Shown piece by piece: positions 13,016-18,410 of a DNA stretch of 64,000 nucleotides (positions are counted from its first letter, which is position 1; the number at the start of each line of letters is the position of its first letter). The stretch is from contig NZ_JAGKTL010000001.1 in the NCBI RefSeq assembly GCF_017908595.1, positions 372,001-436,000 of the forward strand, written 5' to 3'. Below the pieces are notes generated by a model that saw only the letters and a list, made by a program, of their open reading frames with translations, was not told the origin of the DNA and ran no database searches. Origin of the DNA: Rhodothermus bifroesti. Lineage in GTDB: Bacteria; Bacteroidota; Rhodothermia; Rhodothermales; Rhodothermaceae. A program made the translations under genes and the position numbers.

Positions 13016-13963
13016 TTAGTCCATACGTTCAGCCAGGCGCAAGCGAGCGCTGCGGGCCCTTGGGTTTGCTGCCACTTCATCGTTCGAAGGCCGAATAGGC
13101 CGGCGCGTTAGCGGCCGCCACGGCGCTACTAGTTGTCCATACACGTCACGCACCGGCCTCCCTTCCAAGTTGCCATAGCGCAAAAAGCGCTTGACGCGCC
13201 GGTCCTCTAGGGAGTGATAACTGATCACAGCCAGGCGTCCTCCTGGCCGAACGCGTCGCGTGGCAGCCTCAAGTACCTGCTCCAGGGCCTGCAGCTCGTC
13301 GTTGACCGCAATGCGAAGTGCCTGAAAAACCCGCGCTAGCGTTTTTGTGGCTTCCTTTGGAGGCACTTCGCGACGGATGATCTCGGCCAAGGCCGCTGTT
13401 GTGGTAACCGGACGAGCTTCGCAGATGGCTCGCGCTAGCTTTGCCGCGCGTGGCTCTTCGCCATAGCGCCGCAGCACCTCAGCCAATTCCTGCGGACTCC
13501 AGCGCATAAGCAGCTGCTGCGCTGTTGGCCCCTTCGAAGGATCCATGCGCATATCGAGTGGCCCCTCAGCTTGGAAGCTAAACCCTCGCGCCGCTTTATC
13601 GAGCTGGTGCGAAGAGACCCCCAGGTCGAGCAAAAGCCCATCGATCAACTCCACCCCCAAGCTATCCAACAGCGCTTCTAGGTCAGCAAAGTTACCTTGA
13701 ACAAGCCGCAAGCGTCCCTCAGCTAGCGCTTGGGCCAGGCGACAGGCTGCTGCCTCCAGTGCCTCAGGATCTCGATCGATGCCTATGAGCCTTCCTTCAG
13801 GCGACAGCGCCTCCAGCAGCGCAGCCGCATGCCCTCCGCCGCCAATCGTAGCGTCGACGTAGCAGCCGGCCGGATTGGTCACGAGGCCTTCGACGACAGC
13901 CTTATAAAGAACAGGCACGTGGTAAGCCGTGCCATAGTTATGTGTGGCGTGCGGCGCGTTCAC
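13016..13963 (-). CDS. rsmH: 16S rRNA (cytosine1402-N4)-methyltransferase RsmH
   Basis: This SAM-dependent enzyme methylates C1402 of 16S rRNA in the ribosomal decoding centre. It has 315 residues, normal for the family. The SAM-binding motif is [19 protein letters not shown] near residue 38, with [12 protein letters not shown] after it. The family-specific segments [20 protein letters not shown] and [15 protein letters not shown] are all present. Its start overlaps the mraZ stop by 4 nt, the usual mraZ-rsmH coupling at the head of dcw operons. Confidence 0.97.
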
Positions 13964-14403
13964 ACCCCCATCACCTGTTCTGCCAAGGTTTCATAATCAG
14001 CCGGTTGCGCATTCACGTACTGGTCGAAGACCACTGGATTCCAAATTTCTATATGGTCTAATGCGCCAATAATCAGCGCCCGGTCTGTGATATCAGCATA
14101 CTCCATGAGCGGCTTAGGCAACACAATGCGCCCCTGCTTGTCCAACACGACTTCTTCAGCCCAGCGTAAAATGAGCCGGACAAAGTCGCGCACTTCGCGA
14201 TGATACAAGTTGAGCGACATCATTTGGGCCTCCATGTGCGCCCAACGGTCGAGCGGATAAGCAAAAATGCACCGCTCAAAACCGCGCGTCACCACAAACG
14301 TCCCTTTGGCCTCTGGCTTTAAGACCGCCCGCATTTTGGCTGGGATAGCTACCCGGCCTTTCTCATCTACCGCGTATTCTGCCTGTCCTTTAAAGCCCGC
14401 CAT
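13960..14403 (-). CDS. mraZ: Transcriptional regulator MraZ
   Basis: MraZ is a DNA-binding ring-forming regulator of the dcw operon and the first gene of this cluster. The 147-residue protein has two SpoVT/AbrB-type half-domains, [25 protein letters not shown] at the N-terminus in outline and a second with [16 protein letters not shown] near residue 95. Each carries the conserved DxxGR core. ATG 14403 is the only sensible start. Upstream lie direct repeats of the MraZ-box type, which suggests autoregulation of the whole cluster. Confidence 0.95.
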
Positions 14404-14443
14404 CTAAAGGTTGCTGCATCTTACGCCGAGGCATGGGACAATT

Positions 14444-14458
14444 CCCCACTTTTCCCCA
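14444..14458 (-). promoter_or_regulatory. Two MraZ-type boxes upstream of mraZ
   Basis: On the minus strand the sequence reads TGGGG-AAAAG-TGGGG: two identical boxes with an exact 10-bp period, 40-55 nt before the mraZ start. MraZ is known to bind arrays of TGGGN boxes spaced by 5 nt in front of its own gene. Only two clear boxes are visible, whereas three or four are common. Binding is inferred from the pattern. Confidence 0.65.
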
Positions 14459-14466
14459 CCGCGCAG

Positions 14467-14496
14467 ATAAGGTATAGCATTTTTTCAAAAAGTCAA
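14467..14496 (-). promoter_or_regulatory. Candidate promoter of the dcw operon
   Basis: On the minus strand TTGACT (14496-14491) is followed after 16 nt by TACCTTAT (14474-14467). The second element fits the Bacteroidota -7 consensus TAnnTTTG loosely. The predicted start point would fall close to the MraZ boxes. It lies in an AT-rich gap otherwise without genes. This is a visual match only. Confidence 0.4.
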
Positions 14497-14586
14497 GATA
14501 TTACGCAGTTAAAAGAAGGTTTTCTTTTCCTTAGAAGACCAATTGCAGCTCTTTTTTGTGCGGTTTTTTGCTAATTCTATAGGATA

Positions 14587-14636
14587 GGTGAAAATATTTT
14601 CAGTATGTCTACGGGCTTGGTAAAAATATTTTCACC
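14587..14636 (+). promoter_or_regulatory. Pair of palindromic operators in front of the lexA-like gene
   Basis: GGTGAAAATATTTTCAGT (14587-14604) contains a perfect 14-bp palindrome. GGTAAAAATATTTTCACC (14619-14636) is a near-copy, 32 bp further on. The two share the core AAAATATTTTCA. Their position, 35-85 nt before the chosen start of the LexA-like gene, suggests autoregulation. The motif differs from the E. coli (CTGT-N8-ACAG) and Bacillus LexA boxes. Operator function is inferred. Confidence 0.6.
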
Positions 14637-14670
14637 CCCTATCTTTGCCTGCAAAGCGTCATGGAATGCC

Positions 14671-15318
14671 ATGAAAGGACGCCTGACTGCCCGACAAAAC
14701 GAGGCCTACGAATTCATTCGGGCTTATCAGCGCCGGCATCATAAACCGCCCACGCTTCAAGAGATCGGCGAAGCCTTAGGCATTCGCTCAACTAACGGCG
14801 TTTTCAAGCTGCTTCAGACCTTAGAAAAAAAAGGGTACCTGCGCCGAGACCCTGGTGCTGCGCGCGGACTGCACCTGCTCGACAGCGAAGACCCGTTTGC
14901 CCTGACTGAGGCGGCCCCTTCTATCCCTGTGATTAGCCGAACAGCCAGCCATGAACCCGAGCGTCTGCGCCAGCGTCCTTCTGGTTTTTTATCGGTCGAT
15001 CCATTCTTCTTACCTCGTGGCCTGGACCCAGACGCTTGCCTGATCGGACGGGCGGGCGACGACGGCATGAGTGGTGATGGCATCTTTAAAGGGGATTTGC
15101 TGCTTATTGAAGAAACCCCCTGGCGCCAGCTTGCCAATCGGGAGCTGGTGGCCTGCCTGATCGGTGAGTTGCTTTTGGCCCGACGCTTTGTATTTGCCAA
15201 CAACCGAATTCATCTGCAGCCGGCCAACCGAACATACCTCGAAGAAATTTTTTCGCCTGAAGATCCGAGCTGTTACGTTATTGGGCGTGTGCATGCCGTA
15301 TTTCGCCGCCTGGCATAA
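14671..15318 (+). CDS. lexA: LexA-like repressor with degenerate self-cleavage site
   Basis: The 215-residue protein has a LexA winged-helix N-terminus (LTARQNEAYEFIRAY, PPTLQEIGEALGIRSTNGV) and an S24-type C-terminal domain. I start it at ATG 14671 (MKGRLTARQ) because that matches the usual LexA N-terminus. The earlier ATG 14605 would place coding sequence over the second operator. By eye-alignment to E. coli LexA, the Ala-Gly scissile bond is Ser-His here (RTASHEP). The nucleophile Ser119 position is Gly (GDDGMSGDG), and the Lys156 position is Ala (LLLARRF). It may therefore be a repressor that cannot self-cleave. Whether it controls an SOS regulon is unknown. Confidence 0.85.
   Translation: MKGRLTARQNEAYEFIRAYQRRHHKPPTLQEIGEALGIRSTNGVFKLLQTLEKKGYLRRDPGAARGLHLLDSEDPFALTEAAPSIPVISRTASHEPERLRQRPSGFLSVDPFFLPRGLDPDACLIGRAGDDGMSGDGIFKGDLLLIEETPWRQLANRELVACLIGELLLARRFVFANNRIHLQPANRTYLEEIFSPEDPSCYVIGRVHAVFRRLA

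Positions 15319-15378: not shown

Positions 15379-18410
<3,032 letters not shown>

Follow-up and report, generated by a model that had tools for sequence, protein, structure and literature searches.

In Synechocystis PCC 6803, LexA (Sll1626) carries Gly-Gly instead of the scissile Ala-Gly and Asp instead of the catalytic Ser; this protein is not an SOS regulator and controls many non-SOS genes (PMC3091678; PMC7567884). In Bacteroidetes, a non-canonical LexA has a CI-type N-terminal domain and retains both Ala-Gly and the Ser-Lys pair (PMC8565304). The LexA of Balneolaeota is of the ordinary type and binds the direct repeat TTACACATATTTTWTACATA (PMC7739468). Here, we describe LexA', a LexA relative encoded in a stretch of 64,000 nucleotides (the window) of Rhodothermus bifroesti, whose genome assembly (2.88 Mb, 8 contigs) is 98.7% complete. 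In the literature within reach, to which most subscription journals do not belong and which was covered for Rhodothermus and Salinibacter, we found no description of the LexA' clade or of a link between LexA and mraZ. New here are an order-wide clade, a phased operator pair, an apparently one-locus regulon and a constant adjacency to the division cluster.

Identity of LexA' and its self-cleavage residues

The lexA' gene and the codons discussed below are located as follows.

14671-15318, forward strand: lexA', ATG at 14671, stop codon ending at 15318, 215 amino acids; LexA winged-helix DNA-binding domain at about residues 1-70, apparently inactivated S24 peptidase domain at about residues 84-214
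14947-14952, forward strand: Ser93-His94 codons, which align with the scissile Ala84-Gly85 of E. coli LexA
15058-15069, forward strand: codons of Asp130-Asp131-Gly132-Met133, where GDDGM replaces SGxSM and Gly132 stands at the position of the nucleophile Ser119
15181-15183, forward strand: Arg171 codon, aligned with the general base Lys156

The translated frame begins with MKGRLTARQ. An upstream ATG at 14605 is an unlikely start codon and would fall between the two operators described below. The protein associates a winged-helix DNA-binding domain with the S24 dimerisation/peptidase fold, as do members of the LexA family. It matches Pfam LexA_DNA_bind (PF01726) with 67.6 bits for a cut-off of 23.7 and Pfam Peptidase_S24 (PF00717) with 39.3 bits. 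A phmmer search matches it to structures of E. coli LexA with an E-value of 2e-19; its score against the NCBIfam model TIGR00498 (lexA), 101.4 bits, is slightly below the curated cut-off of 110.95 bits. Frame, coordinates and identity agree with those of the LexA-like repressor proposed in an earlier note on this DNA. An AlphaFold2 model built on six sequences has a mean pLDDT of 79 and a pTM of 0.56, so that little trust can be put in how the two domains are arranged to each other. The domains themselves are mostly confident; pLDDT drops below 50 in some of the linker residues 72-80 and of residues 91-94, the former cleavage loop. The top solved matches are all LexA, of which 3k2z and 3jsp span both domains; the C-domain superimposes on LexA with Z ~14 and 2.8 Å, the N-domain on PDB 1lea with Z 11.3 and 42% identity.

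Residues were mapped to E. coli LexA using the phmmer alignment and an alignment of 27 orthologs. The earlier note had placed Ser-His at the scissile bond, Gly at the nucleophilic Ser and Ala at the general-base Lys. The first two assignments are borne out, as Ser93-His94 and Gly132, and the third was off by one residue: NRELVACLIGELLLARRF of LexA' aligns without gap with NGQVVVARIDDEVTVKRL of E. coli, where Lys156 corresponds to Arg171 and Ala170 is its neighbour. Hence, all three elements of autoproteolysis are indeed changed, with an identity at the Lys position other than the one claimed. Asp130, Gly132, Met133, Asp142 and Arg171 are invariant in the 27 orthologs; the residues at the scissile-bond position vary among them. 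LexA' therefore has neither the Ala-Gly (or Cys-Gly) scissile bond nor the Ser-Lys catalytic dyad of an SOS LexA, and within the S24 core of the 27 orthologs no column has at least 70% Ser and no alternative Ser-Lys pair is conserved. Since ordinary LexAs from 16 Rhodothermales genomes retain Ala-Gly, SGxSM and Lys (two proteins from one family excepted), these changes cannot be put down to misalignment, nor are they common to all LexAs of the lineage. Judging from these alignments, LexA' should be incapable of self-cleavage. Arg171 might form a salt bridge with Asp130 or Asp131, which we offer as no more than an idea.

Orthologs of LexA' occur in many families of Rhodothermales, with 33-70% identity (88-89% in named Rhodothermus relatives). 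Outside this order, the rest of the class gives matches only as strong as those given by ordinary LexAs. A single-protein scan of the genome contigs with LexA' returned five loci. LexA' is the sole S24 match in the R. bifroesti genome, and each of the seven Rhodothermus genomes has exactly one LexA_DNA_bind match, LexA' itself; the second canonical LexA that the earlier note proposed to look for is thus not found by either search. Many other Rhodothermales genera have a cleavable LexA alongside LexA'. In the phylogenetic tree, LexA' forms a single clade separate from canonical LexA (SH-aLRT 99); L134 and L145, two highly divergent proteins encoded next to mraZ, have long branches and uncertain positions. 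The median dN/dS of lexA' within the genus is 0.06 (0.017 for the DNA-binding domain and 0.07 for the dead peptidase core). Given this value and the invariant residues, the apparent inactivation is old and the protein under selection rather than in decay; LexA' is, as far as can be read from the sequences, an anciently inactivated and maintained peptidase, a LexA paralog of Rhodothermales. Several genomes of the order have no lexA', and one ortholog (G075:C5:356914-357552) contains one in-frame TGA and is possibly a recent pseudogene. Separately, in family f9, the second LexA of two genomes (L132 in G014, L133 in G026) belongs to the ordinary clade and is devoid of Ser and Lys, apparently an independent loss of self-cleavage.

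Operators, regulon and the SOS response

Upstream of lexA', the following elements can be recognized.

14587-14604, no strand (palindromic): operator 1, GGTGAAAATATTTTCAGT, kept in the genus and the order
14619-14636, no strand (palindromic): operator 2, GGTAAAAATATTTTCACC, 32 bp from operator 1
14640-14647, forward strand: -7 element of lexA', TATCTTTG, 3 bp past operator 2, from the genus alignment

The operators are 18-bp palindromes of the form GGTGA-N8-TCACC, near-perfect in R. bifroesti, and such a pair stands upstream of most LexA' orthologs. The spacing within the pair is 22, 31-33, 41-43 or 54 bp among relatives, and the classes 22/32/42/54 fit a 10.5-bp period (resultant 0.94 for four classes, p ~0.01). 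Because these spacings correspond to whole turns of B-DNA, they suggest that LexA' binds the operator pair cooperatively, on one helix face. Six intergenic regions have just one clear operator, and in Salinibacter-like genera one operator half-site is degenerate. TATCTTTG, of which TATCTT is conserved across the genus, is presumably a -7 promoter element of the Bacteroidota type (TAnnTTTG). With this arrangement of sites, LexA' likely represses its own gene.

This raises the question of the reach of the LexA' regulon. Counts of the operator pattern were compared with those of a reversed-pattern control in 19 genomes (seven of the genus and 12 of other families); the multi-genome searches tolerated one mismatch, so that sites with two or more may escape. 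In R. bifroesti, the strict pattern with up to three mismatches matches operators 1 and 2 only, and a looser pattern gives 12 matches for 15 with the reversed control. The other Rhodothermus genomes have no consistent excess beyond the lexA' locus; with the operators set aside, most genomes of the genus do not exceed the control. For the 12 genomes of other families, most strong matches belong to the operator pair of lexA', which in several of these genomes gives the only ones. Three genomes of the genus share a match at rpsI-rpsB, which overlaps the stop codon of rpsI; it does not figure among the R. bifroesti matches and was treated as chance or coding constraint. Overall, strong copies above background were found nowhere else in the 19 genomes, and the regulon appears, by this pattern search, confined to a single locus. 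A broad regulon like that of the Synechocystis protein, with which the earlier note had compared this one, did not find support among strong sites; weaker sites may exist.

RecA is present in all seven Rhodothermus genomes, and none of them has a good operator match upstream of recA. No Y-family polymerase was found in the R. bifroesti genome or in six of the seven genomes of the genus, whereas 67 of 113 Rhodothermales genomes have one; the single genus member with such a gene carries it at G001:C1:1630258-1630695. Thus, the operators at recA and at error-prone polymerase genes that are expected for an SOS LexA are not there. The RecA-independent regulator put forward in the earlier note fits with this picture. 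As a cleavable LexA is missing and Y-family polymerases are mostly missing, gene content points to a loss of the LexA-type SOS response in the genus Rhodothermus, where other damage responses are possible.

The mraZ neighbourhood

The genes and elements around lexA' are as follows.

13016-13963, reverse strand: rsmH (mraW), second gene of the division/cell-wall cluster (Pfam RsmH)
13960-14403, reverse strand: mraZ, divergent neighbour of lexA' and first gene of the cluster (Pfam MraZ)
14444-14459, reverse strand: two MraZ-type repeats, GTGGGG, with a 10-bp period, located downstream of the mraZ promoter and before the gene
14469-14496, reverse strand: putative core promoter of mraZ, TTGACT-N16-TACCTT, with a match in 26 of 41 relatives
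15379-16686, forward strand: xanthine/uracil-type permease, downstream of lexA', located here only in the genus Rhodothermus
16683-18377, reverse strand: pyrG (CTP synthase), next to lexA' in many relatives and, in those without lexA', next to mraZ

Pfam families at the locus are MraZ, RsmH, FtsI-type transpeptidase, Mur ligase, permease and CTP synthase. Flanking sequence could be read in about 42 genomes with an ortholog, and in each of them lexA' has mraZ and rsmH as divergent neighbours; the divergent members L134 and L145 are also adjacent to mraZ. This does not apply to L075, which is the second copy of its genome, or to L126, for which the available stretch contains no mraZ. The GTGGGG repeats, which we take to be tied to MraZ, occur in all 41 mraZ-lexA' intergenic regions (1.2 expected). 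In 16 genomes without LexA', no operator palindrome precedes mraZ (best 9-10 of 14 positions) and the MraZ repeats are usually still present; in four of these, the CTP synthase gene is immediately before mraZ, from which it follows that lexA' sits between pyrG and mraZ. In Rhodothermus, the permease between lexA' and pyrG may be cotranscribed with lexA', under its operators.

Some 90 bp separate the operators from the -35 element of mraZ, upstream of which they lie, and there is no overlap with the mraZ promoter. At this distance, nothing points to a direct block of mraZ. An effect of LexA' on mraZ is plausible, though we would not count on it, and the lexA'-mraZ synteny could also be a matter of inertia.

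Other elements are found in these intergenic regions outside Rhodothermus. CACATAT or CACATAC occurs, often twice, in 23 of 34 mraZ-lexA' regions from other genera (e.g., L009, L017, L019 and L087; 2.1 expected), and in none of the seven Rhodothermus regions, 14404-14670 of the window included. These elements look like a half-site of the Balneolaeota LexA motif; they were rejected as full sites for a cleavable LexA, the published 20-bp motif not being enriched (p = 0.76). DnaA-box matches (TTATNCACA, mostly TTATCCACA) are present in 12 of the 41 regions (L013, L014, L016, L017, L021, L023-L026 and L028-L030; 0.5 expected) and in none from Rhodothermus. A DnaA input to the division cluster through these boxes is possible.

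Proposed role and comparison with known systems

Beside the observations made here (residue changes and their invariance, selection, conserved phased operators, restriction to one locus, synteny), we consider it fairly probable that LexA' is a non-cleaving, self-repressing regulator of a single locus, outside SOS and probably tied to the division cluster. LexA' dimers would bind the two helically phased palindromes and would repress the lexA' promoter by covering DNA just upstream of the -7 element, which may keep LexA' at a constant level. The protein would control no SOS regulon. Because strong sites are found only between lexA' and its constant neighbour mraZ, the likeliest further output would be a modulation of the mraZ-rsmH-ftsI-murE division/cell-wall cluster. 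Relief of control would occur without RecA-stimulated cleavage, by a ligand, a partner or turnover. More tentatively, the pseudo-peptidase may be a dedicated regulator of division and cell wall, in which the former active site (Asp130-Gly132-Met133 and Arg171) senses a signal other than RecA and the phased operators set the output of the division genes, in a genus devoid of LexA-type SOS.

Other explanations can be considered. LexA' might be an autorepressor that works mainly at weak, degenerate sites elsewhere, as a non-SOS regulator of the Synechocystis kind. We regard this as unlikely: Synechocystis LexA did lose Ala-Gly and Ser and does regulate many non-SOS genes (PMC7567884; PMC3091678), and the one-mismatch searches leave room for such sites, but the R. 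bifroesti sites do not rise above the reversed-pattern control, other families behave likewise, and the one off-locus site common to several genomes of the genus is the rpsI match discussed above. It is quite improbable that LexA' is still an SOS repressor, inactivated by proteolysis in trans or by direct binding of RecA without self-cleavage. RecA is present and LexA' is the only LexA of the genus; against this, recA has no operator in any of the seven genomes, the Y-family polymerase is mostly missing, no regulon is seen, and relatives pair LexA' with a cleavable LexA.

The residue and selection data bear on two further proposals. Conservation of palindromy and helical phase in the operators, together with a low dN/dS even in the dead domain, makes it very improbable that LexA' is a functionless, decaying paralog hitchhiking between pyrG and mraZ, as the ortholog with an in-frame stop and the absence of the gene from several genomes of the order might suggest. 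Self-cleavage by another nucleophile or another Ser-Lys pair is hardly credible. Ser134, in the GMSGDG segment to which the earlier note had pointed as a possible partner in such a pair, stands two positions away from the former nucleophile, but it is Ser in only seven of the 27 orthologs (Asn, Ala, Thr, Gln, Ile or Gly in the other 20) and was rejected on this account; moreover, no Ser column is conserved in the S24 core and the former Lys is always Arg.

If LexA' is the division regulator tentatively proposed above, it outlived the cleavable LexA in Rhodothermus, leaving a genus without a LexA-type SOS response. LexA' would be a clear-cut example of how an SOS repressor can be reused as a local regulator, and whether LexA is linked to the mraZ cluster becomes testable. 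The lexA gene name alone is unsafe ground for inferring an SOS response.

With canonical LexA (E. coli, Thermotoga, and the cleavable LexA of Rhodothermales and Balneolales), LexA' shares domains, their order and a similar length. As for the E. coli type, its operator is palindromic and of LexA-like size, and autoregulation would be alike; however, the operator differs, and Ala-Gly, the Ser-Lys dyad and the SOS regulon are missing. To our knowledge, the only other non-cleavable LexA that can be named is from one cyanobacterium. Like LexA', this Synechocystis protein combines the LexA fold with the loss of the cleavage site and of the catalytic Ser. Unlike it, LexA' is changed at Ala-Gly, Ser and Lys, with the changes fixed over an order, and its strong operators are at one locus beside mraZ, where Synechocystis LexA has many targets. 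The non-canonical LexA of Bacteroidetes, from the same wider bacterial group, is likewise a repressor of S24 fold; LexA' differs from it by its LexA_DNA_bind N-domain and by the loss of Ala-Gly and Ser-Lys. Finally, MraZ is a regulator whose gene heads the division/cell-wall cluster and whose own conserved repeats share the intergenic region with the operators; its fold is unrelated to that of LexA', of which it is a neighbour and not a homolog.
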